Origin: Bacteroidota bacterium
GTDB lineage: Bacteria; Bacteroidota; Bacteroidia; Bacteroidales; Prolixibacteraceae
Assembly: GCA_021849365.1 (NCBI GenBank)
Contig: JAJZSZ010000006.1
Span: 1 to 35,423 of the forward strand
Direction of reading: 5' to 3'
DNA length: 35,423 nt
The translations under genes and the position numbers were made by a program. Under the pieces are notes generated by a model. It had not been told where the DNA came from. It saw nothing but the letters and a program-made list of their open reading frames with translations, and searched no databases. Every line of letters starts with the position of its first letter. Position 1 is the stretch's first letter. Positions 1 through 32,920 of the stretch are shown piece after piece.

Positions 1-728
1 TTTCCATCATAATCGAGCCGGCTGATGCCCGGAACAATGATGCCCAGCTGATCCTGCGAACCTGAAACATACTTGCTCCCGGGAGGATTTTCGGCACCAA
101 ATAAAAGCTGCGCATTTCGAACCGGATTGCCTTCAGGCATTTTTCCTCCCCACAATTCGGCGGCTACTTTTCGCGAGCTGGTTGCCATTCCCGAGCGGTC
201 GTTAAAATCGGTGGTTGGCCATATTTGTGCCACCACAACCGATCCCGGATGAATTTCGGAAACCCACGGTTGATCCATCCAGCCTCCGGCAATGCAAATG
301 CGGTAAGGAAACTGTAACTCTTTCTTGGAGCTTGAACTTGAACGGGCTGGAAGCCCTTCTTCCGGAATACGTTCCAAAACCACCAGTTCAACATTATTTT
401 CCTTGCAAATCCGTGCTTTTCCTTCGGTATAACCATCGGTATTCACAACGAAAATATCGGGTTTCAGGCGCTTCATATCTTCTTCAAAATCGAGCATTCC
501 CATGCCCGACGACACGAATGCTTCGGTAACATATTTAACGGCGCCCACCATGTAAACCCGTTCTTCCTGCGTAAAGTAGGGTTTTTTACCCTTCAGCTGA
601 AAGAGGTTTTCGTCGCGGCCAACACTCACATATAACTTGCCGTATTGAGCTGCTGTTTTAAAAAAGGCTACGTGACCGGCATGCAAAAGATCGTAACAAC
701 CACTGACCAATACTTTTTTATCACTCAT
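1..728 (-). CDS. Nucleotidyltransferase/GHMP-type sugar kinase fusion, C-terminus off the window
   Basis: This gene is missing from the ORF track because it runs off the left edge; the frame is open from an ATG at 728 (MSDKKVLVSGCYDLLHAGH) down to base 1, about 242 residues. Residues 5-135 look like an RfaE/TagD-type cytidylyl- or adenylyltransferase, with the HAGH (HxGH) nucleotide-binding motif at residues 16-19 and a serine-rich stretch near 130 (PARSSSSSKK) in the place of the family's ISTT motif. From about residue 142 the sequence changes to one resembling GHMP sugar kinases of the heptose/fucose-kinase type (RICIAGGWMDQP, then SGMATSSRKVAAELW and GSQDQLGI). Such a protein would phosphorylate a sugar and activate it to a nucleotide sugar in the cytoplasm. 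It lies 71 bp downstream of a co-directional epimerase, so the two probably form one operon. The substrate and nucleotide cannot be read from sequence, and the missing C-terminus leaves the kinase half unverified. Confidence 0.8.
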   Translation of the reverse strand, partial: MSDKKVLVSGCYDLLHAGHVAFFKTAAQYGKLYVSVGRDENLFQLKGKKPYFTQEERVYMVGAVKYVTEAFVSSGMGMLDFEEDMKRLKPDIFVVNTDGYTEGKARICKENNVELVVLERIPEEGLPARSSSSSKKELQFPYRICIAGGWMDQPWVSEIHPGSVVVAQIWPTTDFNDRSGMATSSRKVAAELWGGKMPEGNPVRNAQLLFGAENPPGSKYVSGSQDQLGIIVPGISRLDYDG

Positions 729-799
729 AAGTTTTCGAAAGTCTTAGAAAAGGGCCGGCGGCCGACTGCTAGTTGTCAGCCGCTGGCTTATTTTGTGAT

Positions 800-1774
800 T
801 TATTTAATCCCTCCGGTTACCATTTGGGTGCGAATCCAGTCGTAGGTTTCTTTCATCCCTTTGGCCAGCGGCAGGCTTGGTTCCCAGTTCAGAAGTTCGA
901 GAATCAGGGTATTGTCGCTGTTTCGTCCGCGAACGCCTTTTGGTGCATTCAGGTCGTATGTACGGTTTAATTTTATTCCGGCTATGTTTTCAACAATGTC
1001 AACCAGTTGATTGATTGATACCATTTCGCTGCTGCCCAGGTTAATAGGCTCAATAATGTCGCTGTACATGATTTTCAGGATACCTTCAACGCAGTCGGTA
1101 ATGTACATGAAGCTGCGGGTTTGTTCGCCGTCGCCCCAAATGTTGATGTCTTTTTTGCCATAGAGTTCAGCTTCGAGCACTTTTCGGCACATGGCTGCAG
1201 GTGCTTTTTCGCGTCCGCCGTCCCAGGTTCCGTGCGGGCCGTAAACGTTGTGGAAACGTGCCACACGGGTGTTAATTCCGTAATCTTCGCGGAAGTGGCG
1301 GCACATTCTTTCAGAGAATAATTTTTCCCATCCGTAGCCATCTTCGGCCTGAGCCGGATAAGCATCCGATTCTTTCAGTCCTGGATTGTTTACATCCTGT
1401 TGTTTTTCGCCGTTGTAAACACAGGCCGACGAAGCATAGAAGAACCGGTCGATACCCAGATCTTTGGCTGCCATCAGCAAGTGCGTATTGATTAAAACAC
1501 TCAGCATACATTCGGCTTTGTGAGTTTCGATGAAACCCATTCCTCCCATGTCGGCTGCAAGGTTGAACACTTCGTTGTATCCGTTCAGGGCAGTATAGCA
1601 GTTTTCTTTGCTATTCAAATCCAGAACAAGGTTATCAATGTCGGTGTGTACCTGATACCATTGATTCAATGGTTTTTTATCAACTGCACGCACATCGTTT
1701 CCTAAGTCTTTTAATTTTCTGGCCAGGTGACCGCCGATAAAACCACCGGCTCCGGCTACTACAATTTTTTTCAT
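800..1774 (-). CDS. NAD-dependent epimerase, GDP-mannose 3,5-epimerase-like
   Basis: A 324-residue extended short-chain dehydrogenase/reductase. It has an N-terminal Rossmann motif GAGGFIGGHLARKL (residues 8-21) and the catalytic Ser/Tyr/Lys set as SSACVYN and YGWEK. Several blocks strongly resemble plant GDP-mannose 3,5-epimerase: NLAADMGGMGFI, RFHNVYGPHGTWDGGREKAP, GDGEQTRSF and KGVRGRNSDN. That enzyme converts GDP-D-mannose to GDP-L-galactose (and GDP-L-gulose) in the cytosol, and its length is close to the plant protein without extensions. The next gene downstream is a sugar kinase/nucleotidyltransferase fusion, which supports a role in making an activated sugar for a surface glycan. The start is the only Met before the Rossmann motif (MKKIVVAGAGG). 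The subfamily assignment is fairly strong; the true sugar substrate could differ, for example a heptose. Confidence 0.86.
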   Translation of the reverse strand: MKKIVVAGAGGFIGGHLARKLKDLGNDVRAVDKKPLNQWYQVHTDIDNLVLDLNSKENCYTALNGYNEVFNLAADMGGMGFIETHKAECMLSVLINTHLLMAAKDLGIDRFFYASSACVYNGEKQQDVNNPGLKESDAYPAQAEDGYGWEKLFSERMCRHFREDYGINTRVARFHNVYGPHGTWDGGREKAPAAMCRKVLEAELYGKKDINIWGDGEQTRSFMYITDCVEGILKIMYSDIIEPINLGSSEMVSINQLVDIVENIAGIKLNRTYDLNAPKGVRGRNSDNTLILELLNWEPSLPLAKGMKETYDWIRTQMVTGGIK

Positions 1775-1893: not shown

Positions 1894-1917
1894 GCAAAGG
1901 TTTGCGCAAAGGTTTGC
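1894..1917. promoter_or_regulatory. Two abutting copies of a palindromic 12-mer, operator-like
   Basis: The 12-mer GCAAAGGTTTGC occurs twice back to back with no spacer (1894-1905 and 1906-1917). Each copy is an inverted repeat (GCAAA/TTTGC) around two central bases, the layout of many LacI-family operators. It sits in the divergent intergenic region between the epimerase (minus, starts 1774) and the lacI-type gene (plus, starts 2066), 149 bp before the latter. On the minus strand the same bases give ACCTTTGC, close to a Bacteroidota -7 box. Binding by the neighbouring repressor is an inference. Confidence 0.45.
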
Positions 1918-2065: not shown

Positions 2066-3085
2066 ATGCAAAAAGGCAAAAGTCATGTTTCGTTAAAAGA
2101 TTTGGCACGCGAAATCGGTGTTTCAATATCAACGGTTTCAAGGGCACTGAATAACCATCCCGACATATCTCCGGAGGTGACTCAAAAAGTCCAGAAGCTG
2201 GCTGCAGAGTTGAATTATACACCAAATCCACTTGCGATGGGCTTGCTCAAACAGGCGACCCGCATGATTGGGGTGATTGTTCCTGATTTGGTGACACACT
2301 TCTATTCGTCCATTATTTCAGGTATTGAAGATGTTGCAGAAGAAAAGGGGTATTACATTCTGATAGCCTCGTCGAACGAAAAACTGCAAAAGGAAATTAA
2401 GGCTGTTGAAAACCTGATGAAGACCCGGGTCGAAGGCCTGATTGTTTGCCTGAGCCAGGAAACAAAATCGTATGGGCATTTCGACCGGCTGATAAACAAC
2501 AATATTCCACTGGTTTTTTTCGATCGGGTGTGTCGAACAGATGAAGTGCCGTCGGTGGTGGTCAACAACGAAGACGCAGCATTAAAAATCACGAAGCATT
2601 TCTATAAAAATGGGTTCCGCCGCATAGCCTACATTGCTGGTCCCGAGTATCTGAATATTTCTCAGGAACGAACTCATGGGTATTTAGCCGGACTAAAAAG
2701 CTGCGGATTGGAATTTAGACCTGAATTACTGGAGAAATGTAACCTCAGTACCCGGGAAGCAACCAAAGCAACGGCGCGACTTCTCGATTTACCCGAGCCT
2801 CCCGACGCTATTTTTGGCATTAACGACACCGTGGTTTTTGCAGCGATGAAAGAAATTAAACAAAGAGGATTGAGAATTCCGGAAGATGTGGCTCTGGTTG
2901 GTTTCACCGACGAGTTTCACTCTACCGTTGTCGATCCGGCTTTAACATCAATTACTCACCCAACTTTCGAAATCGGTCAGGAAGCAGCACGTTTATTCTT
3001 TCGCTGTGTCGAAAATCCGGATAGCCGACCCGATCAGGTTGTTCTGAATACCAAACTGATCATTAGAAAATCGTCGGTCAGATAA
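2066..3085 (+). CDS. LacI-family transcriptional regulator
   Basis: A 339-residue protein of the usual LacI/GalR length. The N-terminal helix-turn-helix and hinge helix span about residues 8-58 ([19 protein letters not shown], then NYTPNPLA, the hinge that inserts in the minor groove). The rest is a periplasmic-binding-protein-like sensor domain, starting [17 protein letters not shown] and including the family-typical regions [15 protein letters not shown] and [11 protein letters not shown]. It should bind an operator and release or engage it on binding a sugar or sugar phosphate. The effector is unknown. A tandem palindrome at 1894-1917 is a candidate operator, which would make it autoregulated and possibly a regulator of the divergent nucleotide-sugar genes. 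The downstream oxidoreductase starts 63 bp after the stop and may be co-transcribed. Confidence 0.93.
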
Positions 3086-3148: not shown

Positions 3149-4216
3149 ATGACATCCAGATTATTATCGCCGATCACCATAAAAAATATCACCCTGAAAA
3201 ACCGAATTACCATTTCACCCATGTGCCAGTATTCAGCTGTCGATGGGTTTGCAAACGACTGGCATTTGGTTCACTATGGAAGCCGTGCCGTTGGAGGTGC
3301 TGCATTAATTATTCAGGAAGCAACCGCTGTTTCGCCTGAAGGCCGTATTTCGCCCGGGGATTTGGGTTTGTACAACGAAGAACATATTGAAAGACTGAAG
3401 GGCATTACTTCGTTTGTTCGTCAGCATGGCGCTGTGGCAGGTGTTCAGCTTGCACATGCAGGTAGAAAAGCCTCATGCGCTGTTCCATTGAATGGTGGCA
3501 AACAACTTAAAAAAGAGGAAGGTGGATGGACAACCGTGGCACCATCGGCAATTCCATTTAACCCGGAAGATGAGGCTCCGCAGGCCTTGGATCTGGTCGG
3601 AATTCAAAAGGTTGTGGATGACTTTAAAAAAGCTTCTGAAAGAGCATTGACTGCCGGTTTTCAGGTGGTTGAAATACATGCGGCACATGGATATTTGATT
3701 CACCAGTTTCTTTCGCCATTAAGCAATCAGCGTACTGATGCGTATGGCGGAAGCTTCGAAAACCGCATTCGCCTGCTGCTCGAAATAGTGAATTCCGTAA
3801 AAGGTATTTGGCCTGAAGATCTGCCCTTGTTTGTGCGTATCTCGGCAACCGATTGGGTTGATGGGGGCTGGAATGTGGATGAAGCTGTGAAACTTGCTGC
3901 AATTCTGAAGGATTTGGGAGTTGATCTGATTGATTGTTCATCGGGAGGAATGGTGCCTCATGCTAAAATTCCGGTGGCTCCGGGCTATCAGGTTGCTTTT
4001 GCTGAGCGGATTAAAAAAGAATCGGGAATTTTGACCGGTGCAGTTGGCTTAATTACCGAGGTTAAACAAGCAGAAGACATTCTGGCAAACAACCGTGCCG
4101 ACCTTATTCTCATTGCCCGTGCCTCTTTGCGCGATCCTCATTTTGCGCTTCATGCAGCAAGAATTCTGGAAGACGACATTGCCTGGCCGGTGCAATATGC
4201 AAGGGCAAAACAGTAA
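3149..4216 (+). CDS. Old-yellow-enzyme-type NADPH:flavin oxidoreductase (YqjM/NamA-like)
   Basis: A 355-residue TIM-barrel flavoenzyme. The N-terminal block LLSPITIKNITLKNRI followed by SPMCQYS carries the cysteine (about residue 26) that tunes FMN in the YqjM (class II) branch of old yellow enzymes. VQLAHAGRKAS supplies the substrate-side histidine region, EIHAAHGYLIHQFLSPLSNQ holds the paired H-x-x-H that binds the substrate carbonyl, and RTDAYGGSFENR is the family signature. The C-terminal GLITE and ADLILIARASLRDP region binds the FMN phosphate. These cytoplasmic enzymes reduce activated C=C bonds of enals, enones and nitro-compounds with NADPH; the physiological substrate is usually unknown. 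The start follows the LacI-type gene by 63 bp, and a strong terminator follows directly after the stop. Confidence 0.93.
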   Translation: MTSRLLSPITIKNITLKNRITISPMCQYSAVDGFANDWHLVHYGSRAVGGAALIIQEATAVSPEGRISPGDLGLYNEEHIERLKGITSFVRQHGAVAGVQLAHAGRKASCAVPLNGGKQLKKEEGGWTTVAPSAIPFNPEDEAPQALDLVGIQKVVDDFKKASERALTAGFQVVEIHAAHGYLIHQFLSPLSNQRTDAYGGSFENRIRLLLEIVNSVKGIWPEDLPLFVRISATDWVDGGWNVDEAVKLAAILKDLGVDLIDCSSGGMVPHAKIPVAPGYQVAFAERIKKESGILTGAVGLITEVKQAEDILANNRADLILIARASLRDPHFALHAARILEDDIAWPVQYARAKQ

Positions 4217-5169: not shown

Positions 5170-5415
5170 ATGGCCTGGTTGTTTAATAATGATCACGAAA
5201 ATTACCAACTCAAATTTCGGGAGAAATGCGAGGCCACACTTAGAAACTATTTGTATGATTGTGTTAAATTCCGGCAAATCATTGAAGAAATAAATTCAAT
5301 CGTTGAATTTATTTGCAAAAAGGAAGTTTATCGGGTTGAACTTGGAATTTTCGACCGATACAATTCACCCTGCGAGATGTATTCTCATATTCTACGGAAC
5401 TACATTATTTTTTGA
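5170..5415 (+). CDS. Possible small hypothetical protein
   Basis: An 81-residue ORF from ATG 5170 (preceding in-frame stop at 5149). It fills most of a 372-bp gap and overlaps the 3' end of the convergent gene at 5400 by 16 bp. The composition is protein-like and charged (QLKFREKCEATLRNYLYD, EEINSIVEFICKK), and codon choice resembles neighbouring genes, with many GAA, AAA and ATT. No domain, signal peptide or Shine-Dalgarno sequence is seen. The opposite-strand 76-aa ORF in the same gap looks less natural. It could be a genuine small gene, a fragment of something larger, or chance; I see no homologue I can name. Confidence 0.4.
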   Translation: MAWLFNNDHENYQLKFREKCEATLRNYLYDCVKFRQIIEEINSIVEFICKKEVYRVELGIFDRYNSPCEMYSHILRNYIIF

Positions 5416-7484
5416 TTTTTCAACCATTTGCTAACCCTGTCATGTTCAGCTTGATGCTCACTTATTATTTCATTCAATATTGCCTGAAACCGTGGCTCTG
5501 ATCGTAATCGATCAAAAAGCGGATCATTCTGGATTAAGATGATAATCCAGCTATGTTTCCATTTTATGGTATTCATAAACAGGTTGAGCTGCTCGTATGC
5601 ATTTTCTTTTTCCCCCAGAAATGCATAGACACCGGCTAAGTCATAATGAAAAAATGGATTGTTGATTCGCTGTAAATCAATTCCTTGGGTCGATAATTTA
5701 ATCTGTTTTTCAAAATAGTAGTTTGCTTTTTCCTTAAAACCTTTCATCCAGAAAGCATATCCAATCCGGTGCATTTCATTGTAGGATAAAAGATCTGATT
5801 TCTCCAATTGGACAAGTAGTTTTTGATAGGTCTCCAAGGCCTTATCATACTGATGTAAAAAAATGTATGTCAGTCCCAGACCTCTGATAACTGTTGTGTT
5901 GGAAGGATCAATCTGATGTGCTTTTAAGAAAAAAACAAGCTTTCCCTGCCAGTTTTGCATATAATCTTCAATGAATCCCTGATTCAGAAAATAAGTAACA
6001 GAGTCTCTTGTTAATTTAAATACCTCATTGTCATAATATGAACCTTCTTTTGGGAATCCGGCCCAAAGAAAACAATTCCCAATAGCTGCGAGTAATTTGG
6101 GAAGATCACGTCCACGATGTAATGAAGCTGCTTTTATGTAATTGCTTAGGGCAATAACCGCATCCTTAAATTCGTATAAAAATCCCATCGCAGCATAGGC
6201 CTCCCAGCAGTTTGGATTAATTTTTATGGCCTGGCTAAATTCCTGAATAGCCAGTTCCGGCTTCCCGGTTTCCATATAATAATCACCTCTGACTTTGTAG
6301 GCTTCGGCCAGTTGATCGTCGAGCTTAAGTGCTTTATTCGCAAAGAAAAAAGAAGAATCGATAAATGAATTGGAAAGGTATGAATGAATAAAATTCTTTT
6401 CCCAGTATATGTTCGCCAAGCCAGAATAAGCTTCAGCATATTGAGGGTCAAAAAGTAGAGCTTGTCGATAGTGATATTCAGATGATTTCAACATATCGGT
6501 CTTTTTTTTATCCAAGCGGTATTCCCAAAGTTCTTCTCTCGCCTTTTGATAGAAATCGTACGCCGTCAGGTTAAGTGTAGGAAATTTTTCGAGTCGCTGT
6601 CTTTCTTCCTGTCCGATTTTGGCATTTAACTCATTCGCGATTGATTGAGCCACTTCGTTTTGTACTGTTAATATTTCTCTTTTATCACGGAGGAAATTCC
6701 CGACCCATATATGGCGTTCCCTGCGACCAGGCTCAATTAACTGTGCAATTAACTGAATGCTGTCGCCAATGACAAACAAACTACTTTCGAACAAATAGTC
6801 AACTTTTTGCTCCTGACAAATTTTGCGGGCAGTTTTTTTTGTGCCACGGTATTGTTCGGTTGAGGTTCGCGACATCACTCTCAAATCGGCAATTTTTGAA
6901 AGATATAATAAGATAGCATCTTGTAATCCATCAGCCATATACTGTTTGTTTGGGTCATTTCCCAAATATTTTACCGGAAGCACTGCAATTGATTTTTCCT
7001 TGTCATTACCGGATTTTGAGTCTGAAACTTCATTCACAATCAGCGAAATTGCGATCGCCCCAAAAATAACAGACCCCAAAATCACTAATAATTTGGTTTT
7101 CAAACTCCGGCTTTTTGTCTTCGCAATAGCCTTATCGGAGTGGTTGTTATCTCCGTTCGATAACTCTCGCAACCTTAACTCGCCCGGAGCATATCCAAAA
7201 TATTCGTGAAAGCACTTATTGAAGTAGCTTGGGCTACCAAAGCCGACCCGGTAAGAAATCTCCGAAGCGGTCAGATCTTCATTTAGCAACAACTCTTTTG
7301 CCTTATTGAGTCTGGCCTCTCTGATGAATTGATTGATTGTTTGATTCGTAATTGATTTTAACTTTCGGTGCAGGTTTGAATGGCTCATTCCCATTTCCCG
7401 GATAAGATCTTCGACTCCAAATTCTTCATTTGACAAATTTGCGTTTACAAGATCTGTAAGCCTCTGCATGAAATCGTTGTTCAT
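5400..7484 (-). CDS. Membrane-anchored AraC-HTH/TolB-like/TPR regulator, paralogue A
   Basis: A 694-residue protein with an unusual order. An AraC-type DNA-binding domain comes first (about residues 5-105: two helix-turn-helix regions, MGMSHSNLHRKLKS and LTASEISYRVGFGSPSYFNK). A single membrane helix follows near 130-150 (LLVILGSVIFGAIAISLIV), then a TolB/FlgO-like domain as found beside adenylate cyclases and CadC-type regulators (KSIAVLPVKYLGND, ADGLQDAILLYLSKI, LRVMSRTSTEQYR). The rest is tetratricopeptide repeats (for example AEAYSGLANIYWEKN, PNCWEAYAAMGFLYEF). The layout suggests a one-component regulator with cytoplasmic DNA binding and periplasmic sensing. It is a close tandem paralogue of the next gene upstream: the first ~165 residues are nearly identical while the sensor halves have diverged. 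Targets and signal are unknown. Confidence 0.88.
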   Translation of the reverse strand: MNNDFMQRLTDLVNANLSNEEFGVEDLIREMGMSHSNLHRKLKSITNQTINQFIREARLNKAKELLLNEDLTASEISYRVGFGSPSYFNKCFHEYFGYAPGELRLRELSNGDNNHSDKAIAKTKSRSLKTKLLVILGSVIFGAIAISLIVNEVSDSKSGNDKEKSIAVLPVKYLGNDPNKQYMADGLQDAILLYLSKIADLRVMSRTSTEQYRGTKKTARKICQEQKVDYLFESSLFVIGDSIQLIAQLIEPGRRERHIWVGNFLRDKREILTVQNEVAQSIANELNAKIGQEERQRLEKFPTLNLTAYDFYQKAREELWEYRLDKKKTDMLKSSEYHYRQALLFDPQYAEAYSGLANIYWEKNFIHSYLSNSFIDSSFFFANKALKLDDQLAEAYKVRGDYYMETGKPELAIQEFSQAIKINPNCWEAYAAMGFLYEFKDAVIALSNYIKAASLHRGRDLPKLLAAIGNCFLWAGFPKEGSYYDNEVFKLTRDSVTYFLNQGFIEDYMQNWQGKLVFFLKAHQIDPSNTTVIRGLGLTYIFLHQYDKALETYQKLLVQLEKSDLLSYNEMHRIGYAFWMKGFKEKANYYFEKQIKLSTQGIDLQRINNPFFHYDLAGVYAFLGEKENAYEQLNLFMNTIKWKHSWIIILIQNDPLFDRLRSEPRFQAILNEIISEHQAEHDRVSKWLKNQKIM
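6985..7484 (-). repeat. Direct repeat, copy 1: 5' part of paralogue A
   Basis: The 5' ~500 bp of this gene align without gaps to 9320-9819 at a constant offset of 2,335 bp. Runs of tens of bases are identical (for example the segment around 7021-7085 against 9356-9420). Similarity falls sharply at the start of the sensor domain, so the duplication is mosaic. Confidence 0.85.
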
Positions 7485-7585
7485 CTTTCGCTTGATTAAA
7501 ATTCCTTTAATCGATACCCTTCCAGATTATAGATTCGTAATAAGGATCAATGAAATTCAGTCAATCAATCTTATTCGAGAAAAAA

Positions 7586-7711
7586 CTACAAGTTCTCCTG
7601 CGTTTCCAACCACTTTTTAACTCGTTCATGTTCTGCCTGATATTTAGCTTCTGCCTCATTCAGAATTTCTTTAAACCGAGGTTCATTTCGGATGTTATCC
7701 AATAATGGATT
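7586..7711 (-). pseudogene. C-terminal stub of a third AraC-HTH/TolB/TPR paralogue
   Basis: This is not in the ORF track because it has no start codon. Translating 7711 to 7586 on the minus strand gives 41 residues plus a stop, beginning NPLLDNIRNEPRFKEILN and ending VKKWLETQENL. It matches the C-terminal tails of both flanking paralogues (A: NDPLFDRLRSEPRFQAILNE; B: NDPLFDNIRGEARFQQIASD). It starts 8 bp after the stop of paralogue B in a different frame, so it is neither read through from B nor expressed alone. It is best read as what remains of a third tandem copy whose body was lost by recombination. Confidence 0.8.
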
Positions 7712-7719
7712 CACATATT

Positions 7720-9819
7720 CTAAGGAACTACCAGAATCCCTAATTCTGCAAGCCGTTTTCCGGTTCGCTCATGTTCAGCCTGATATTTTGATTCAATGTC
7801 GCTGGCAATCTGCTGAAACCTGGCTTCCCCACGGATATTGTCGAAAAGCGGATCATTTTTCAGGTAAACCGTCCACCAATGGGCAAATGATTTCCTTTTA
7901 TTTAAGATGTCTAAATTTTTGTAAGCCTCCTCTTTATTACCTATAAAAGTATAAGTAGCAGCAAGATCATAATAGGTGTGTGAGTCTGAGAAAAATCTTT
8001 GAAGTTTTATCATTTCCTGAGAATATTTGATTTGCTGATTAAAATAGAAATTGGCCTCTTTAAATTTGCCAAGTTTCCAATAGCAAAATCCAATACGATT
8101 CGCCCCATATGTAGGGATATATTCTGATTTTATTGATGCTTCAATGTATTTTTCGTAGAAAGGAAATAGTTCTTTGCTATTACTTAAAGATGAGCAATTT
8201 ATACCTAAATTGATAATGTAGTCGGGATTAATCGCGTGGGCTTTTTGGGCATAGCTTAAAGCGTTTTTAATGTTTCCACGGCTAAGCTCAATAGAACTTA
8301 AGTTATTAAAATACCATACTGAGTCTCCAAGTATGGATAATACGTCGGTATAATACTTTTCTGTTTGATCAAAAAATCCGGCCCATTGATATGCATGCCC
8401 AATAGACATCAAAAAATAGGGATACTCCTTTCCCCTGTTGCGTTTCATTCCTTCGATATAATTGGTAATGCCTTCTGCAAAATTCTCCAATAAATAGTGC
8501 GAAATTCTTCCTTTATTATAATACGACTTAAAGTCATTGGGATCCAGTTCTATGGCTTTGTCAAAATCTTCAGATGCCTGTTCAATTTTACCTGTTTCCA
8601 GGTAACAACTTCCCCTCAGCCGATATGCCTCTGCCAACTGACTGTCATAGTTAATTGCCTGATTGGCAAGAATTAAAATTGAATCTGTAAAATTTTCTAA
8701 GTATTGATTTTTAACCATGGGTATTTGAACATTTTTATCCCACATTATCTCGCCTAATCCAACGTATGCCTTCGCAAATGTTGAATCTTGCGCTACTGCT
8801 TTTTGGTAAAAATTCCAGGCATTTACAAGTGCAGTTTTGTTGTGGTTGTCATTCTCGCATTTCATGTATTCATTTCGCCCTCGTTGGTAAAAATCATAAG
8901 CTACAAGGTTTGTCGTAGGTAATTTTCTGATAAGCTTTTGTTCTTCCGGTGTTATTGCGGCCTTTAATTCATTGGCGACGGTCTCAGCAATTTCACTTTG
9001 AACCGATAAAATGTCTTTCCAATCCCGATTATATTCATTCGACCACGCATGCCTTTCGTCGCTTGCTTTAATTAGCTGCAATATCAACCTGCTTTTTTCT
9101 CCATCCCTTAAAAAGCTGCCTTCCAACAGATAGGCCACATCGAGTTCTTTGCCAATCGCTTTTGCAGTTTTGTCGGTTCTTCGGTACTGCTCAACAGAGG
9201 TTCTGGAAATAACACGCAGATCCTTTATTTTCGAAAGATGAAGCAGAATTGCGTCCATGATACCGTCGGCAAGATATTGTTTATCACCATCATCACTTAG
9301 GTATTTGAACGGAAGTACGGCAATTGATTTTTCTTTGTCATTGCCGGATTTTGAGTCTGAAACTTCATTCACAATCAGCGAAATTGCGATCGCCCCAAAA
9401 ATAACAGACCCCAAAATCACTAATATAATGGTTTTCAAATTCCGGCTTTTTGTCTTAGCGACAGGCTTATCGGAGTGGTTGTTATCGCCGTTCGATAACT
9501 CCCGCAACCTTAACTCGCCGGGAGCATATCCAAAATACTCGTGAAAGCACTTATTGAAATAAGTTGGACTGCCAAATCCGACCCGGTAAGAGATCTCTGA
9601 TGCGGTTAGATCTTCATTTAGCAACAACTCTTTTGCCTTATTGAGCCTGACCTCTCTGATAAATTGATTGATTGTTTGATTTGTATTGGATTTTAACTTT
9701 CGGTGCAGGTATGAATGGCTCATTCCCATTTCCCGGATAAGATCTTCGACTCCAAATTCTTCGTTTGCCAAATTTGCTTCCACAAGATCTGTAAGCCTTT
9801 GCATGAACGGGTTGTTCAT
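7720..9819 (-). CDS. Membrane-anchored AraC-HTH/TolB-like/TPR regulator, paralogue B
   Basis: A 699-residue protein with the same order as its downstream neighbour: N-terminal AraC-type DNA-binding domain (about 5-105; MGMSHSYLHRKLKS, YRVGFGSPTYFNK), one membrane helix near 130-150, TolB-like domain (KSIAVLPFKYLSDD, ADGIMDAILLHLSKI, LRVISRTSVEQYR) and a long TPR array (FAKAYVGLGEIMWDKN, AEAYRLRGSCYLETGKIEQA). Only about a dozen of the first 165 residues differ from paralogue A, but the TolB and TPR halves diverge widely, which suggests different inputs feeding very similar DNA targets. The tail (RTGKRLAELGILVVP) also differs. A possible promoter lies at 9860-9890. It is separated from paralogue A by 235 bp that hold the stub of a third copy. 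Confidence 0.88.
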   Translation of the reverse strand: MNNPFMQRLTDLVEANLANEEFGVEDLIREMGMSHSYLHRKLKSNTNQTINQFIREVRLNKAKELLLNEDLTASEISYRVGFGSPTYFNKCFHEYFGYAPGELRLRELSNGDNNHSDKPVAKTKSRNLKTIILVILGSVIFGAIAISLIVNEVSDSKSGNDKEKSIAVLPFKYLSDDGDKQYLADGIMDAILLHLSKIKDLRVISRTSVEQYRRTDKTAKAIGKELDVAYLLEGSFLRDGEKSRLILQLIKASDERHAWSNEYNRDWKDILSVQSEIAETVANELKAAITPEEQKLIRKLPTTNLVAYDFYQRGRNEYMKCENDNHNKTALVNAWNFYQKAVAQDSTFAKAYVGLGEIMWDKNVQIPMVKNQYLENFTDSILILANQAINYDSQLAEAYRLRGSCYLETGKIEQASEDFDKAIELDPNDFKSYYNKGRISHYLLENFAEGITNYIEGMKRNRGKEYPYFLMSIGHAYQWAGFFDQTEKYYTDVLSILGDSVWYFNNLSSIELSRGNIKNALSYAQKAHAINPDYIINLGINCSSLSNSKELFPFYEKYIEASIKSEYIPTYGANRIGFCYWKLGKFKEANFYFNQQIKYSQEMIKLQRFFSDSHTYYDLAATYTFIGNKEEAYKNLDILNKRKSFAHWWTVYLKNDPLFDNIRGEARFQQIASDIESKYQAEHERTGKRLAELGILVVP
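9320..9819 (-). repeat. Direct repeat, copy 2: 5' part of paralogue B
   Basis: Partner of the repeat at 6985-7484: same orientation, gap-free over about 500 bp, with long identical stretches. It covers the AraC HTH, the linker and the membrane helix. Confidence 0.85.
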
Positions 9820-12558: not shown

Positions 12559-14568
12559 ATGAATCACTTTTCCTGCAGAAGATTAAAATCGCTTCTTTCA
12601 CTGATAGTTATACTTTGTTTCCAGAATAATATGCTGGTTCAGGCCGACGAAAATCGGTGGAAAATAAACCCTTCCGGTTCAATTTCATGGTTTATCGACA
12701 ACCGTTTGCCTCATTCGGATCACATCGAAATGAGTGGCGACAGTATTTCGGCTATTCTTCGTTATGGCGTAAATGCTGATAAATCGTTTCAGATTGAGCG
12801 GCAGCTGGTGTGGCCCATGCTGAGAACCATTCCGAACAATACGCACGCCAGTTTAATCCGCTCGTTTTCTGAAGATTTGATTGGCAAAATATCAGTGAAT
12901 GGTCGCCTTATAAAAGGCGAAAAAGTTGATGAAATTAGTCTGAATGGATTGATGACCGTTAAAAGTTCGGCTAATGGAATTGGGATTGAGCGGGTCATCT
13001 TTCCCTCAACAGCTCACCCGTTTTTTTACGAAGAATACAGGATTACAAATAGGCAGGACCGGCCACTTTCGGTTGAAATACCTGATTATCGGGTAGATTA
13101 CACAACCGATCCGCAAAAAGGAACAGTAGGTAGTTACAGCGTAGTTTCAGAGGTAGCGGGAAGCGGTTTTTATACCCTGAAAAAGGACGAAAGCGTTAGG
13201 TTTGGTCTGGTGTTTTCGGCATATCCAAAAGGTAAAAACAAAGTTGCTACAGATATTTCTGCAGAAAGAAGCAGCCGCGAGAATCTGGTTGCTGAGTGGG
13301 AAAACAAATTGGTACTCGAAACTCCTGACCAGGTTTTAAATCAGGCTTTTGCGTTTGCAAAAATCAGAGCTTCTGAAAGTATCTATAAAACTGCAGGTGG
13401 ATACATGCATGGTCCTGGTGGCGGAGCTTACTATGCCGCAATCTGGGCCAACGATCAGGCCGAATATGTCGGGCCATTCTTTCCGTTTTTGGGTTACTCA
13501 AAGGGCAACGATGCTTCGGACAACGCTTACCTGCATTTTGCCCGGTTCATGAATCCGGAGTACAAGCCAATTCCGAGCTCAATTATTGCTGAAGGGAAAG
13601 ATATCTGGAACGGAGCCGGGGACAGGGGCGATGCCGCTATGATTGCTTATGGGGCAGCCCGTTTCAGCCTTTCGCTGGGCGACAAACAAACCGCTGAAAA
13701 ACTCTGGCCTTTAATTGAATGGTGCCTCGAGTACAACAAACGACACATAAATACAGATGGCGTTGTTTCGTCGGATTCGGATGAGCTTGAAGGTCGCTTT
13801 CCTGCCGGAAAAGCAAATTTATGCACTTCGAGTTTGTATTACGATGCATTAATCTCGGCTGCTGCTCTGGGAAAGGAACTTGGCAAACCAGCCTCTTTAA
13901 CTTCAGTTTATGCCAAACAGGCTGCCGCGATAAAGCAGTCGATCGAATCGTTTTTTGGTCGCAAGGTTGAAGGGTTTGATACATACCGGTATTACAAGGA
14001 AAATGATGTACTGAGGTCGTGGATTTGTGTTCCGCTGACTGTCGGAATTTTCGATCGCAGCGAAGGAACAATTAATGCCCTTTTCTCTTCAAGGCTTTGG
14101 ACCAAAGACGGGTTGGCCACACAGGCAGGCGATTCAACCTTCTGGGATCGCTCAACTTTATACGCATTGCGGGGAGTTTTGCAGGCCGGTAAAACCGAAA
14201 AGGCAATGGAATTCCTGAAATATTATTCTCAGCGTCGTTTGTTGGGCGAACATGTTCCTTATCCGGTTGAGGCTTATCCGGAAGGAGGACAGCGACATCT
14301 TTCGGCCGAAAGCGGGTTATATTGCCGCATTTATACCGAAGGATTGTTTGGCATTCGTCCGGTTGGATTGAGTAGCTTCACAATTACTCCGCAGTTACCT
14401 GCCGATTGGGATTTTATGCGGCTGAAGAAGGTCCATGGATTTCAGAAGGAATTTGACATTGACATTAAGCGCGAAGGTGACAAAATCCGGTTGACTGTTA
14501 TGAGTAATGGGGCGGTCGTTCTAAATAAACTCGTACCAAACGGATCGAAACAGATGGTTAAGTTTTAG
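12559..14568 (+). CDS. Exported six-hairpin glycosidase-like protein, family unassigned
   Basis: A 669-residue protein with a probable signal peptide (basic start MNHFSCRRLK, hydrophobic SLLSLIVILCF, mature from about residue 30). Residues 30-270 look like a beta-sandwich domain. From about 270 to 600 the sequence has the aromatic- and Gly-rich helical pattern of (alpha/alpha)6 glycosidases: GGAYYAAIWANDQAEYVGPF, GAGDRGDAAMIAYGAARF, STFWDRSTLYALRGV, and SAESGLYCRIYTEGLFGIRP close to the end of the barrel. The C-terminus (SSFTITPQLPADWDFM, then a short strand-rich tail) resembles the closing beta domain of rhamnosidase- or trehalase-like enzymes. Candidate acids are Asp in WANDQAEY and Glu in AESGLY, but I cannot name the GH family or substrate. 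It converges with an MFS transporter gene only 9 bp away, which may handle the product. Confidence 0.75.
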   Translation: MNHFSCRRLKSLLSLIVILCFQNNMLVQADENRWKINPSGSISWFIDNRLPHSDHIEMSGDSISAILRYGVNADKSFQIERQLVWPMLRTIPNNTHASLIRSFSEDLIGKISVNGRLIKGEKVDEISLNGLMTVKSSANGIGIERVIFPSTAHPFFYEEYRITNRQDRPLSVEIPDYRVDYTTDPQKGTVGSYSVVSEVAGSGFYTLKKDESVRFGLVFSAYPKGKNKVATDISAERSSRENLVAEWENKLVLETPDQVLNQAFAFAKIRASESIYKTAGGYMHGPGGGAYYAAIWANDQAEYVGPFFPFLGYSKGNDASDNAYLHFARFMNPEYKPIPSSIIAEGKDIWNGAGDRGDAAMIAYGAARFSLSLGDKQTAEKLWPLIEWCLEYNKRHINTDGVVSSDSDELEGRFPAGKANLCTSSLYYDALISAAALGKELGKPASLTSVYAKQAAAIKQSIESFFGRKVEGFDTYRYYKENDVLRSWICVPLTVGIFDRSEGTINALFSSRLWTKDGLATQAGDSTFWDRSTLYALRGVLQAGKTEKAMEFLKYYSQRRLLGEHVPYPVEAYPEGGQRHLSAESGLYCRIYTEGLFGIRPVGLSSFTITPQLPADWDFMRLKKVHGFQKEFDIDIKREGDKIRLTVMSNGAVVLNKLVPNGSKQMVKF

Positions 14569-14577
14569 AGCCAGAAA

Positions 14578-15819
14578 TCAGGCTTCCGTCTTATTAATTG
14601 TTTTGGGATGTAGCGTTACCAATTGCAGAATTATTGCAATGGCAACAACGATTGTGAGTTTCGCGAAATCGTGCCTCATGTTTCCGGCGTCAGCCGATTT
14701 TCCCATAAAACTGGTTATGGCCGCACCTGCCGAAATTCCGACAAGGTTCATCAGGCCATACCCGGTGGCACGGTATCGCGACGAAACAAACTGACAAAGA
14801 ATAGGCATATTGTTTACATCGAAAATTCCAAAGCCAAGCCCGAAACACAGTCCGCCAAGCAGGATAAATCCGAATCCTGAGCCGTACCCAAGTAGAAAAA
14901 GGGCCGGAATGGTGAGTGCCAGTCCGATCACTCCTGTGTAAATCCGGCCTTTCAGGTTGTGCTGCGACCATCGGTCGGAAACATATCCTCCCAGTAATAC
15001 TCCGGCCAGTGAGGCCAGGGCAGTTGTCATGGTCGCCAGCGGGCCTGCTTCCGACATGTCGAGGTGTAAAGTTTCGGAAAACAGGGTAGGGACCCAGTTT
15101 TTTACAGCCCAGCCGGGCAGACTTGGAGCCGAAAAATAAAAAAGCAGTACCCAGAATGCGACGTTTCCGAACAGAATCCTGAACGCATTGAATGCCATTG
15201 AAAGCTCCGTTTTGAACGAAGATCGTTCGGTTGATTCAACCTTGTAAGTTTTCTTTTCTTTCAGGAAAAACAGAAGAATAAAGCTGTAAACCATGCCAAT
15301 TATTCCGAAGAGGAAAAATGTGGAGTGCCACGAAAGCTTTGTTGCAATGGTTGCTCCAAAACCACCCAGTGCCTGACCCAGATATATTCCGGTGGTGTGA
15401 ATTCCGATGGCAAACGATCGAGTTTTGCCCAAATGATAGTCGGCAATTAACGACAGTCCGGCCGGAATATAAAAAGCTTCGCTGATGCCCATAATGGCCC
15501 GGAGTACATACAGCTGATCGAATGTTTGGGCGAAACCCATTCCCAGGGTGACGCTCGACCAGGTAAACAAACTTCCGACAATTAGCCACTTGCGGTTTAT
15601 CCGGTCGGCAATAATGCCCGAAATGGGACTCATCAAGGCGTAAATCCAGAGAAAGATAGCCATGAGACGGCCGAAACTTTCGGCTTTGGCCAGTTCAGCA
15701 ATATCTACCATCATCGAGGGTTTCATGGTCGAAAGCATCTGTCGGTCGAGGTAGTTGAGAACTCCGACCAGCCACAACAAACCGACTACAACCCACGGGT
15801 ATATTGCTTTTTCTTTCAT
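14578..15819 (-). CDS. MFS transporter, sugar-acid/anion symporter-like
   Basis: A 413-residue protein with about 12 hydrophobic segments. Typical major facilitator features are present: an acidic start to helix 1 (VGVLNYLDRQMLS), the loop 2-3 motif GIIADRINRKW, and the repeat at the half-way point GGYVSDRWSQHNLKGR. The LNYLDR signature and SEAFYIPAGLSLIADY resemble the anion:cation symporter branch (hexuronate and related acids) or the spinster-like branch. The inner-membrane substrate is unknown. The gene ends 9 bp from the stop of the convergent glycosidase-like gene, and no terminator hairpin is visible between them, so the 3' ends of the two transcripts probably overlap. Confidence 0.87.
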   Translation of the reverse strand: MKEKAIYPWVVVGLLWLVGVLNYLDRQMLSTMKPSMMVDIAELAKAESFGRLMAIFLWIYALMSPISGIIADRINRKWLIVGSLFTWSSVTLGMGFAQTFDQLYVLRAIMGISEAFYIPAGLSLIADYHLGKTRSFAIGIHTTGIYLGQALGGFGATIATKLSWHSTFFLFGIIGMVYSFILLFFLKEKKTYKVESTERSSFKTELSMAFNAFRILFGNVAFWVLLFYFSAPSLPGWAVKNWVPTLFSETLHLDMSEAGPLATMTTALASLAGVLLGGYVSDRWSQHNLKGRIYTGVIGLALTIPALFLLGYGSGFGFILLGGLCFGLGFGIFDVNNMPILCQFVSSRYRATGYGLMNLVGISAGAAITSFMGKSADAGNMRHDFAKLTIVVAIAIILQLVTLHPKTINKTEA

Positions 15820-19430: not shown

Positions 19431-19758
19431 AAGTTGGGTTTTTGGGTAAACTATTCAGGAACCGAACTTACGAAATATCTTTTCAAAATAGATGGGTTCC
19501 TGAAAATTAAGGGTTGAAGCCTGAATTTGTACCATGGGAATCAATAGACTCTTCAATACCTGTACACTTTTTATCTCTTAGTATTAAAATTGTCAGGAAT
19601 ATGGCTGGTTATACATGACTTGTTTTACTCTTTGTTTCAATTAGTTTTCAAGTATTTGTAGTAAATTTATAGTTAGTAAATTAACAGTTGATTTGTTTTT
19701 TACTTCATTACGGAGCCTCTGAACATTGTTCACTGCTCAAGAGATAATAGAGCTGACC
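19431..19758. other. Divergent intergenic region between the Gfo/Idh/MocA gene and the hybrid sensors
   Basis: This 328-bp region is AT-rich with no convincing ORF. Besides the long-arm inverted repeat it holds only degenerate promoter-like boxes (for example TTGATTTG near 19690). No RNA gene was recognised. Confidence 0.5.
19454..19504. repeat. 10-bp inverted repeat upstream of the Gfo/Idh/MocA gene
   Basis: TTCAGGAACC (19454-19463) and GGTTCCTGAA (19495-19504) are perfect inverted copies separated by 31 bp, 24 bp upstream of the ATG at 19430. The spacing is three turns of DNA plus arm length, which would suit a looped or dimeric operator. It could also form a long-loop hairpin in the leader. 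Confidence 0.5.
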
Positions 19759-21921
19759 ATGAAGCAGTTTTCTGCTATCGGTGATTGGTTTACGTGGTTA
19801 GTATTTCATCAGAATGACACTCCGGAACTTATTATCAGAAAAAAATTCTTTCTGATCACAAACCTCGTAACTATCGTTTTCATATCCATTATTACCGTAT
19901 TATCGTATGTGCTTGATTTGATGAATTTCGCACGCTATGCATTGATGTTGTTGGCATTTAGTTTGGGGCAATCAATTCTGCTGTTAATTCTCAGAAGCTG
20001 GTCGCGATGGTTTGTTTACTCTGTTTGCAGCCTTTTCATGGTGTTGATCTTCTACATTATTCTCAAACTTGGAGGGATTGCAAACTCGGCGGGCCTTTTA
20101 ATGGCGGCCTATTTTTTCCTTCTTACTTCGCAATGGATGGAAGATACAAAACTCTTGGTTTTGATTGGATTGCTGTTTGTGATTGGCGTGCTGGTTGCCG
20201 GAGTTTCATATCCTTATCTTAAACTTGATGAAAGCATATTCGGATGGAAGAACAACCTTTTCTTTGCAATAAACTTTGGCTGGATTGGACTATTGTTGGC
20301 TGTGGCTCTTTATTTTACAATTATAAAAAGTGAAAATACGGCTAAAAACAGGGCCGAGCAGTTACAGGAACTTGATCTTCTGAAATCACAACTTTATGCC
20401 AATATCGCTCACGAATTACGTACTCCGTTAACACTGATAAAGGGAAATGCAGAGGAAATAAAAGAGAATCATTATGGTGAAACTACAGATAGGGCAAACA
20501 GCATTATACAAAATTCAGATAAGATTTTGTCTCTGGTTAACCAGATATTGAACCTTTCCAAAATAGAAGAAGGTGTTATGCCAATGCGTTATGTCCAGAG
20601 CGATTTGATCACTTTTGTCAAGGCTATTGTGGATTCATTTCACGCATATGCCCATATGCAAAAGATTGAGCTACACTTTTATTCAGAATGCCCGCAACTA
20701 TTGATGGATATTGAACCAGAGAAGTTGGAAGAATCGCTGTCGAACCTGTTATCGAACGCCATCAAATATACCCCTCAAAATGGAGATGTTTATGTTTCGG
20801 TTCGAAAACTCCTTTCGGACAGTAAATCAGAGCCGCAGGTTGAAATCAGTGTACGTGATACCGGAATTGGCATTCAGGAAGACCAGCTCGATAAAATTTT
20901 CATTCGCTTTTACCGTGTCGAGGACAAACGTTATCCTTATCCCGAGGGAACAGGAATAGGGCTGACGCTGGTGAACGAATATCTTAAGCTAATGAATGGC
21001 TCAATACACGTAAGCAGTTCGTTGGAAGAAGGTTCCGAATTCATCATCGTGCTTCCCGTAACTCACACTGCAGAAACAAAGAATGAAATTCGTTCAGGAA
21101 ATTCATTCAGGAGTAGGGAAACATTTAATACATCGCATATCGCAATTACAAACAATGACAATAACTTACCTCATTTACTCATTATTGAAGACAATAAGGA
21201 GTTGAGCGAATATCTTATCGGTTTGCTTAATGACGAATATCAGATTCTAACTGCCGAAAATGGTGTCTCCGGAGTTGAAAAGGCTGTAACTATTATTCCT
21301 GACATTATTTTGAGTGATGTAATGATGCCCGGCAAAGATGGCTATCAGGTTTGCAAAGAGTTGAAGAATGATTTTCGTACAAACCATATCCCAATTGTAT
21401 TACTCACGGCCAGAGCCGACACTGATTCGCGCATTTTGGGACTGGAGCTAGGCGCCGATGCATACCTTACCAAGCCTTTCGACAAAAAGGAATTGATGAT
21501 TTGCCTGCATAATCTGTTTATTCAACGGGAGAAACTGAGGTTGAAGTATCAATCAAATCTTTACGAAAAGTTTCCTGAGGAATATGCTGGCGGATTAAGT
21601 GAAAAGTTTTTGAACAGGACGATTAGAATTCTTGAACAGAATTTTGGCGATGAAACCTTCCGTATTGAGGACCTGTACCTGAAATTAGGAATCAGTAGAG
21701 TACAACTGCACCGAAAACTGACGGCTTTAACCGGACAATCAACATCCACTTTCATGCGAAATTTCAGGTTACATAAAGCCTGCAGGCTATTGCCTGAACC
21801 CGATAAAAATGTTTCGGAAATTGCTTATGCTGTTGGCTTTACTGATGCCAATTACTTTACACGTGCATTCACGCAGGAATACGGAATAACTCCGACAGAA
21901 TACAGGAGATCTATTATATAA
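19759..21921 (+). CDS. Hybrid two-component system with polytopic membrane input domain, copy 1
   Basis: The ORF track begins at a TTG (19726); I prefer ATG 19759 (MKQFSAIGDWFTW), giving 720 residues, because it matches the start of the tandem copy. Order: about six hydrophobic segments in residues 30-195, a short coiled coil (RAEQLQELDLLKSQ), a HisKA domain with LYANIAHELRTPLTLI, an ATPase domain (LSNLLSNAIKY, DTGIGIQEDQLDKIF, GTGIGLTLVNEYL), a receiver domain with phospho-acceptor Asp in DIILSDVMMPGKDGYQV and Lys in YLTKPF, and a C-terminal AraC-type DNA-binding domain (GISRVQLHRKLTALTG, YAVGFTDANYFTRAF). Sensing, phosphorelay and DNA binding are thus in one inner-membrane protein. It lacks the periplasmic two-beta-propeller domain of classic HTCS regulators of glycan loci. 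Confidence 0.94.
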   Translation: MKQFSAIGDWFTWLVFHQNDTPELIIRKKFFLITNLVTIVFISIITVLSYVLDLMNFARYALMLLAFSLGQSILLLILRSWSRWFVYSVCSLFMVLIFYIILKLGGIANSAGLLMAAYFFLLTSQWMEDTKLLVLIGLLFVIGVLVAGVSYPYLKLDESIFGWKNNLFFAINFGWIGLLLAVALYFTIIKSENTAKNRAEQLQELDLLKSQLYANIAHELRTPLTLIKGNAEEIKENHYGETTDRANSIIQNSDKILSLVNQILNLSKIEEGVMPMRYVQSDLITFVKAIVDSFHAYAHMQKIELHFYSECPQLLMDIEPEKLEESLSNLLSNAIKYTPQNGDVYVSVRKLLSDSKSEPQVEISVRDTGIGIQEDQLDKIFIRFYRVEDKRYPYPEGTGIGLTLVNEYLKLMNGSIHVSSSLEEGSEFIIVLPVTHTAETKNEIRSGNSFRSRETFNTSHIAITNNDNNLPHLLIIEDNKELSEYLIGLLNDEYQILTAENGVSGVEKAVTIIPDIILSDVMMPGKDGYQVCKELKNDFRTNHIPIVLLTARADTDSRILGLELGADAYLTKPFDKKELMICLHNLFIQREKLRLKYQSNLYEKFPEEYAGGLSEKFLNRTIRILEQNFGDETFRIEDLYLKLGISRVQLHRKLTALTGQSTSTFMRNFRLHKACRLLPEPDKNVSEIAYAVGFTDANYFTRAFTQEYGITPTEYRRSII

Positions 21922-21952
21922 ACTTACATTCTTTTATAAGGTAGTTACAATT

Positions 21953-25885: not shown

Positions 25886-26767
25886 TCATTTTAGCAATTC
25901 GGCTGGAATTGCCGGCGTTGCCCCTTTTTGCGTACAAACAAAAGCAGAAATCTCGACAGCCTTTTGGTGAATCTCTTTTAATGGTCTTTGGTTAAGTATA
26001 CCCATTACCATAGCCGAAGTAAACGAATCGCCAGCACCAACGGTATCTTCAACCTTTACTAACGGTGTTGGTACAAACGAAACTTCGTCGTTACCAAACA
26101 AATAACTGCCGGATTCACCTTTGGTCAGGGCTAAATAATCGAGCGAATAGGTTTCTTTGATTTTTTCACAGATTTGTGTTTCTGATCCTTCCAGCCCAAA
26201 CAGTTCTTTAAATATTTCAACCTCGTCGTCGTTGATCTTGAAAATATTGGCAAGCGATAACGATTCATGAATCAACTCTTTACTGTAATATTTCTGCCGA
26301 AGATTGATGTCATAAACTTTCAGGCAATGGTCCGGAACAAGCTTCAAGGCCAATATGATGGATTCATGCGAAACCCAGCTGCGCTGTGCCAGAGTCCCGA
26401 AACATACCGCATCAGTTTCTTTTAAAACCTGAATGGCTTCAGGAAGAAGCTCAATGAAATCCCATGCTACATTTTCGTAGATGGTGTATTCGGGCTTCCC
26501 TTCCTTTAAGGTTACACCAACGGTACTGGTCGGGTATTTATTAATGGCGATGCAATTCCGGATTCCTTTTTCATTGACAGTATTCATGATTTCACGGCCC
26601 AATTCATCGTCGCCAACTGCACTGATTGCCACGCCAACAGCGCCAAGCTGCATGGCATGATAAGCGAAATTAACAGGTGCTCCACCCAAAACTTTTCCTG
26701 TAGGCAACATGTCCCAAAGAACTTCGCCCATCCCGACTACTGTATATTTTTTGATTGAATTATTCAT
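25886..26767 (-). CDS. Fructokinase, PfkB family
   Basis: A 293-residue ribokinase/PfkB-fold kinase. The N-terminal block is GMGEVLWDMLPTGKVLGGAP, with the sugar-binding GGAPVNFAYH typical of fructokinases. The C-terminal signature DTVGAGDSFTSAMVMG holds the catalytic Asp (GAGD) and the anion hole. It phosphorylates fructose in the cytoplasm (product fructose-6-phosphate in this family), feeding glycolysis. It is the last gene of the fructan operon, 44 bp after the transporter gene, matching BT1757 in the B. thetaiotaomicron locus. No substrate besides fructose is suggested by the context. Confidence 0.93.
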   Translation of the reverse strand: MNNSIKKYTVVGMGEVLWDMLPTGKVLGGAPVNFAYHAMQLGAVGVAISAVGDDELGREIMNTVNEKGIRNCIAINKYPTSTVGVTLKEGKPEYTIYENVAWDFIELLPEAIQVLKETDAVCFGTLAQRSWVSHESIILALKLVPDHCLKVYDINLRQKYYSKELIHESLSLANIFKINDDEVEIFKELFGLEGSETQICEKIKETYSLDYLALTKGESGSYLFGNDEVSFVPTPLVKVEDTVGAGDSFTSAMVMGILNQRPLKEIHQKAVEISAFVCTQKGATPAIPAELLK

Positions 26768-26811
26768 TATTAATGATTGATTATTGGTTGCAATGATGTT
26801 TCCGCTTATTG

Positions 26812-27963: not shown

Positions 27964-27981
27964 ATTGATAAGCTTTAGTTT

Positions 27982-29544: not shown

Positions 29545-29611
29545 GATATACTGGTTTAGTTTGTATATGCCCGCGTTGTTGTAAGACGAGCAATGCAATT
29601 TTGTTGATGGG

Positions 29612-31078: not shown

Positions 31079-31111
31079 ATTGATTGATTTGAAAGACATA
31101 AGCTGCAGGTT

Positions 31112-31143
31112 AAAATGGGGATGAATAAAATCATCCCCATTTT
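31112..31143 (-). terminator. Intercistronic hairpin after susD (partial terminator or stabiliser)
   Basis: A perfect 13-bp stem (31112-31124 AAAATGGGGATGA with 31131-31143) closes a 6-nt loop, 13 bp after the susD stop and 33 bp before the next start. On the minus strand four U residues come from the stem base and then AACC follows, so it is a weak terminator by shape. Such hairpins inside Sus operons can lower downstream expression or protect the susCD mRNA. Confidence 0.65.
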
Positions 31144-31156
31144 TTAGGTATATAAT

Positions 31157-32899: not shown

Positions 32900-32920
32900 A
32901 GTTCTTTAGATTTTAAGTGA

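Follow-up and report, generated by a model that had tools for sequence, protein, structure and literature searches.

GDP-mannose 3,5-epimerase (GME), FKP-type kinases and the breakdown of L-galactose, which in the known bacterial cases is oxidative, are already known, each separately. In Bacteroides, FKP salvages fucose beside Gmd/Fcl, and among the heptose systems that pair a kinase with a nucleotidyltransferase (HldE/RfaE, HddA/HddC) the kinase of HldE is of the PfkB/ribokinase type. To date, the bacterial GMEs in the literature have been assigned to LPS or antibiotics. The GME equilibrium lies at about 80:15:5 with GDP-mannose favoured, and activity from GDP-L-galactose has been measured in Chlorella (PMC6678494, PMC8787198). 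FKP also phosphorylates L-galactose, with poor affinity, and yields GDP-L-galactose (PMC11982464). The known bacterial catabolism of L-galactose follows a dehydrogenase route to D-tagaturonate that involves no nucleotide sugars (Phocaeicola vulgatus BVU_0219/0222; Luteolibacter lgu genes, PMC12632266).

The locus described here, at one end of a 35,423-nucleotide stretch of DNA (the window), shares elements with each of these systems. Its GME shares family and fold with the enzymes of Arabidopsis (2C59) and Methylacidiphilum fumariolicum (MfGM35E), as well as every catalytic and signature residue, and its identity to plant GME is about 50%, as for the characterised bacterial GME; unlike known GMEs, however, it belongs to an apparently LacI-controlled sugar-uptake operon with a kinase-nucleotidyltransferase, and not to vitamin C or LPS/antibiotic synthesis. 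The fusion protein encoded next to it would, like FKP, convert a free L-galacto-configured sugar to the sugar-1-phosphate and then to the NDP-sugar on a single chain, and its C-terminal GHMP kinase has the same sugar-contact residues, whereas it differs from FKP in length (378 aa vs. about 950), in an unrelated HxGH N-terminal half where FKP has PF07959 and a beta-helix, and in the compactness of its kinase. With HldE/RfaE and HddA/HddC the fusion shares the kinase-plus-nucleotidyltransferase logic, and its HxGH domain is related to HldE domain II, but its kinase is of the GHMP type. We interpret the locus, with a probability of about 0.6, as a LacI-controlled operon for the salvage or catabolism of L-galactose that is analogous to the Leloir pathway but operates on GDP-sugars. 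As in the Leloir pathway (GalK, GalT, GalE), a kinase, NDP-sugar activation and NDP-sugar epimerisation would deliver a common sugar phosphate; unlike in that pathway, the intermediates would be GDP- rather than UDP-sugars, the substrate an L-sugar, the epimerisation a double one (3,5), and a pyrophosphorylase would stand in for the uridylyltransferase. The proposed growth substrate is the same as that of oxidative L-galactose catabolism.

Organisation of the locus

The window is one contig (C99) of a draft genome in 528 contigs, the close relatives of which include Prolixibacteraceae. The GME gene is followed on the same strand by the start of the fusion gene, and a lacI gene diverges from the pair (Table 1). 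A second contig of the assembly (C343) repeats the window's last ~84 bases almost exactly at its start, with a few mismatches that probably reflect strain variation, and holds the 162 residues that the fusion lacks at the left edge of the window (L010:2-490), followed by genes for ManC (360 aa, of the mannose-1-phosphate guanylyltransferase family) and a GH29 glycoside hydrolase of 511 aa that looks secreted. In a related genome (G012), the order LacI, GME, fusion, ManC, GH29 is unbroken on one contig, and the complete fusion (378 aa) is 89% identical. Whether the NADH:flavin oxidoreductase gene downstream of lacI belongs to the cluster is doubtful.

Table 1. Positions of the features at the GME-fusion locus within the window
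Feature	Position	Strand	Basis
Bifunctional fusion, 5' part (242 of 378 codons)	3..728	-	ORF runs off the left edge; remainder on C343; whole gene in G012
GDP-mannose 3,5-epimerase, 324 aa	800..1774	-	phmmer and active-site residues
Putative tandem palindromic operator GCAAAGGTTTGC-GCAAAGGTTTGC, divergent promoter region	1894..1917		Motif kept in related genomes
LacI-family regulator; conserved neighbour, transcribed away from the GME-fusion operon	2066..3085	+	Pfam LacI/Peripla_BP
NADH:flavin oxidoreductase (old yellow enzyme type), downstream of lacI; doubtful cluster member	3149..4216	+	Found in closest relatives only

Elsewhere in the window, a fructan utilisation locus (25886-35422, minus strand) encodes a PfkB-family sugar kinase, an MFS transporter, two GH32 proteins, and SusD-like and SusC-like proteins. 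The GH32 at 29612-31099 (minus strand) is 28% identical to the neighbouring GH32 and has MNDGIPAA and GEWNRADF in place of its NDPNG and WECPD blocks; it might therefore be an altered paralogue or one without catalytic activity. Two adjacent AraC-HTH/TPR regulators (5400-9819, minus strand) are near-identical over the first ~180 residues and diverged over the remainder (54% overall), a pattern such as might be left by gene conversion or domain swapping. The ORF translations also reveal an adjacent pair of paralogous hybrid sensors (19726-24112, plus strand), each with a membrane part, a histidine kinase, a receiver and an AraC-type HTH. A secreted-looking protein of 669 aa without a Pfam match (12559-14568, plus strand), possibly an (alpha/alpha)6-type glycoside hydrolase, adjoins an MFS transporter (14578-15819, minus strand).

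The epimerase and the fusion protein

A phmmer search of the PDB matched the epimerase to Arabidopsis GME (2c59) with E = 4.7e-96, with 154 of 310 aligned residues identical and long identity blocks; the next family, GDP-L-fucose synthase, followed only at 5e-29. The original prediction of a plant-like GME is borne out by this match, and the protein does not fall into another SDR clade. The hallmarks of GME are a catalytic Cys, a Lys (not His) base, an acidifying Arg (not Lys), the S-Y-xxx-K triad, N203 and R243 (PMC8787198). The residues S116, C118, Y147, K151, N176, K190, R220 and R284 of the protein correspond to S143, C145, Y174, K178, N203, K217, R243 and R306 of the Arabidopsis enzyme; all eight are invariant in the 55 homologues collected (55/55), K190 providing the Lys base and R284 the Arg where GMER has His and Lys, respectively. 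Judged by its sequence, the protein is a genuine member of the GME family, closer to characterised GMEs than to GMER, GalE or other SDRs. A search of plasmids found GME-like genes in four records (Azospirillum, Skermanella, Thalassobaculum and Methylobacterium).

The N-terminal domain of the fusion (residues 1 to about 135) is an HxGH nucleotidyltransferase (PF01467, E = 1e-14; motif H16-A-G-H19), with H16, G18 and H19 invariant among 98 sequences. The GHMP kinase domain starts at P141-Y-R-I-C-I-A-G-G-W-M-D-Q-P. With the completed single sequence, no Pfam GHMP model matched at E ≤ 1 (the GHMP_kinases_N/C cut-offs were not reached), and a search of the PDB with the single sequence also missed the kinase half; we regard the Pfam miss as a detection limit because profile and fold searches succeed. 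The profile of the fusion alignment matched the L-fucokinase half of FKP (E = 1.6e-9) ahead of the heptose kinase HddA (3k85, 1e-5), and a search with the C-terminal domain alone agreed with this. AlphaFold models reached a mean pLDDT of 87.7 for the whole fusion and 92.9 for the C-terminal domain alone, and in Foldseek searches the latter retrieved FKP first, then WcbL, HddA and mevalonate kinase, with moderate TM-scores (about 0.6). At ~240 aa, the kinase domain is compact and does not reach the length of other GHMP kinases, but carries motif 1 (P-x-R...AGG), the glycine-rich ATP loop, the catalytic Asp, a C-terminal GxGGG motif (SG[CS]GGG in the majority of clade-A sequences and GAGGGG in those of clade B; see below) and the predicted GHMP fold. 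Residues R143, W150, D152, G223, Q225 and D226 are invariant in 98 of 98 sequences and correspond to R592, W599, D601, G759, Q761 and D762 of FKP, which are sugar or catalytic contacts (D762 being the general base) or, for G759, lie near them (PMC11982464); the correspondence comes from the profile alignment for motif 1 and from reading of the G-x-Q-D motif for G223, Q225 and D226. A further FKP contact, T602, is Q153 in the fusion. From these comparisons, the C-terminal domain appears to be a compact GHMP kinase with the L-fucokinase half of FKP as its nearest solved relative. The predicted fusion of a nucleotidyltransferase and a GHMP kinase is thus supported in both halves, and the kinase half, once completed, retains the GHMP catalytic residues. 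PF07959 was found neither in the fusion protein nor in the window's genome.

The activated sugar had been proposed to be an L-galactose or a heptose derivative; the L-galactose type is supported, the heptose type is not, the kinase being nearer to L-fucokinase than to heptose kinases. For the fusion to be an HddA/HldE-like kinase joined to a heptose-1-phosphate nucleotidyltransferase is very improbable, despite the relationship of its N-terminal domain to the HldE/HldC nucleotidyltransferases and despite HddA and the heptokinase WcbL being the next best matches of the kinase: the protein scores far below the HldE/RfaE equivalog cut-offs (45.7 bits vs. 181.5, and 38.7 vs. 521), L-fucokinase is the best match of the kinase in both sequence and fold, with conserved sugar contacts, the fusion keeps a strict partnership with GME, and the operons examined showed no genes for heptose biosynthesis. 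We therefore rejected this reading.

The fusion family is widespread: the first 594 stretches matched yielded at least 517 relatives. In a tree built from 97 fusions, clade A (32 rows) separates from clade B (65 rows), both starred; this tree and that of the GMEs are quick trees with SH-aLRT support only. Residue 145, beside the sugar motif, is C or S in 33 of 33 clade-A sequences and D or E in 65 of 65 clade-B sequences; in FKP it is D. GME is adjacent to 29 of the 32 clade-A fusions, and two of the other three genomes carry a GME of 69% identity elsewhere. One verrucomicrobial locus (L075:7283-12532) has a clade-A fusion flanked by two genes of the GH4 family and a GFO/IDH/MocA oxidoreductase gene, with an ABC importer, the GME being elsewhere in the genome.

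Some clade-B loci include Gmd, GDP-fucose synthase, a FucP-like MFS transporter and RhaM, although most have neither Gmd nor Fcl alongside. From this context, clade-B fusions probably convert L-fucose to GDP-L-fucose in place of FKP. FKP was found in none of 8 clade-B genomes compared to 18 of 61 relatives overall, a difference (chance 0.049, kinship uncorrected) that is only suggestive because the wider sample of the phylum holds three fusion genomes besides the window's own. Clade-B fusions also occur in host-associated Bacteroidota (L091, L097, L089; Tannerella forsythia, Coprobacter), where they are likely an unrecognised enzyme of GDP-L-fucose salvage that replaces FKP.

L-fucose might also be considered as the sugar of clade A, in which case the fusion would make GDP-L-fucose and GME would 3,5-epimerise it to GDP-D-rhamnose (GDP-6-deoxy-D-mannose). 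The L-fucokinase-like kinase half and the sister-clade members with Gmd/Fcl agree with this assignment, and the GH29, MFS and RhaM neighbours of GME are compatible with fucose as well. Nevertheless, we consider it improbable. FKP accompanies the clade-A fusion in 8 of 15 genomes, and a clade-B fusion does so in two, a coexistence that would follow if the sugar of clade A were a different one and that makes a fucose enzyme doubtful; residue 145 switches between the clades; the GH29 of the cluster is nearest to an alpha-L-galactosidase; and we know of no outlet for D-rhamnose-1-phosphate.

Genetic coupling, regulator and neighbours

In several phyla GME and the fusion are direct neighbours, at 38 loci, of which 35 are distinct and the rest near-duplicates; GME comes first on the same strand in 36 of the 38, and the two genes lie from 1 to a few hundred bases apart. 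Among 61 relatives, all 15 with a clade-A fusion have the close GME (15/15), clade-A fusions are missing from the 45 that lack this GME, and in the remaining one a contig end truncates GME, with LacI adjoining. Three more pairings involve distant GMEs (L068, L132, L223). A clade-A fusion accompanies a 45% identical GME in a Phycisphaerales locus, as does a clade-B fusion in a Chloroflexi locus (L132) and, together with Gmd and Fcl, in genome G138. GME and the fusion thus appear to have been paired independently about four times, which argues that both proteins act in one pathway.

A LacI gene is nearby in 26 of the 35 distinct loci. Of 15 related genomes, 12 have the palindrome GCAAAGGTTTGC in the LacI-GME intergenic region, and copies elsewhere are few, so that the LacI regulator probably binds the tandem copies in the window. 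The extra sites had no recurring neighbour; in one locus (L040), the operator also precedes an ORF of 1075 aa, the size of SusC. LacI regulators, GH29, MFS transporters, RhaM-type mutarotases and ManC are the commonest neighbours of fusion-linked GMEs; SSF and ABC importers also occur, and the tally includes a match to D-lyxose isomerase. ManC is confined to Prolixibacteraceae-type loci (15/35). Neither a phosphomannomutase nor an isomerase was found among the ten neighbours scanned in L056, L058, L061, L071 and L073, where one ORF (L058:11165-12820, from the cultured Maribellus sp. YY47) had no Pfam match. The window's genome also encodes an L-fucose isomerase. Among solved GH29 structures, the cluster GH29 is closest to BpGH29, which acts in porphyran degradation as an exo-alpha-L-galactosidase (E ~1e-91 vs. 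~1e-55 for the next GH29), as are the GH29s of L035, L063 and L059, the last from the cultured Draconibacterium aestuarii; BpGH29 shares its similarity cluster with true fucosidases, so that this closeness supports, but does not prove, the specificity. The L132 locus comprises LacI, an aldo-keto reductase, an amidohydrolase, a Zn-dehydrogenase, an ABC importer, the fusion, GME and L-fucose isomerase, a gene set for sugar breakdown in which the reductase, amidohydrolase and dehydrogenase are of the general type of the oxidative L-galactose route.

The original prediction left salvage and synthesis side by side and looked for flanking glycosyltransferases. None is present in the core cluster, which instead has LacI, the operator, importers, mutarotase, ManC and the alpha-L-galactosidase-like GH29, and they are nearly absent from fusion-linked operons (in L061, two occur upstream in the opposite orientation). 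This context favours L-galactose uptake and breakdown or recycling over synthesis. A biosynthetic role, in which a surface glycan would draw on GDP-L-galactose (or GDP-L-gulose) made by ManC and GME, with the fusion salvaging free L-galactose into the same pool, is the less probable alternative. In its favour, ManC-GME is the forward route, the described bacterial enzymes have the biosynthetic assignments noted above, GMEs without a fusion have glycosyltransferases and sugar transferases as their commonest neighbours, and L223 unites GME, the fusion, Gmd and Fcl. Fusion-linked operons, however, combine LacI and operator with importer, mutarotase and exo-glycosidase, and the L040 operator ahead of the SusC-size ORF likewise speaks against this role.

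A possible GDP-sugar route for L-galactose

By family and neighbourhood, a sugar 1-kinase, an NDP-sugar forming enzyme and an NDP-sugar epimerase are encoded together. In the catabolic reading that we prefer, the exo-alpha-L-galactosidase-like GH29 would free L-galactose from plant or algal polysaccharides, and the importer and mutarotase would supply the correct anomer. The C-terminal domain of the fusion would phosphorylate C1 to give L-galactose-1-phosphate, and the N-terminal domain would transfer GMP from GTP to give GDP-L-galactose and PPi. GME, working in reverse, toward the favoured side of its equilibrium, would then produce GDP-D-mannose, which could be used directly or be converted by ManC, also in reverse and with PPi, to mannose-1-phosphate and GTP; mannose-1-phosphate would enter glycolysis, and GTP and PPi would be balanced across the nucleotide steps. 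Several observations weigh against this reading: ManC is restricted to Prolixibacteraceae-type loci, the operons yielded no phosphomannomutase, the genome has an L-fucose isomerase, the FKP contact T602 is replaced in the fusion, BpGH29 clusters with fucosidases, and the L223 gene set would suit biosynthesis as well. The sequences establish the enzyme families, the conserved active-site residues, the repeated gene linkage and the conservation of regulator and palindrome; we infer the substrate and the direction of flux from the gene context. The use of GTP by the fusion is the weakest link, its GDP-sugar partners being the one pointer to it; to our knowledge, HxGH nucleotidyltransferases use CTP or ATP, and GTP would be unusual.

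We found no description of the fusion, or of L-galactose breakdown through GDP-sugars, in the open-access literature searched. We would give even odds that the locus represents an undescribed Leloir-type pathway for an L-sugar, proceeding through a bifunctional enzyme of a new kind, an HxGH guanylyltransferase joined to a compact L-fucokinase-like GHMP kinase, with GME and ManC running backwards, and that the sister clade is an unrecognised replacement of FKP in GDP-L-fucose salvage in many Bacteroidota. If correct, this would assign a catabolic role to a bacterial GME, an enzyme hitherto regarded as biosynthetic, would extend the known routes for L-galactose from polysaccharides of algae and plants by a non-oxidative one, and would provide a function for a widespread fusion family.
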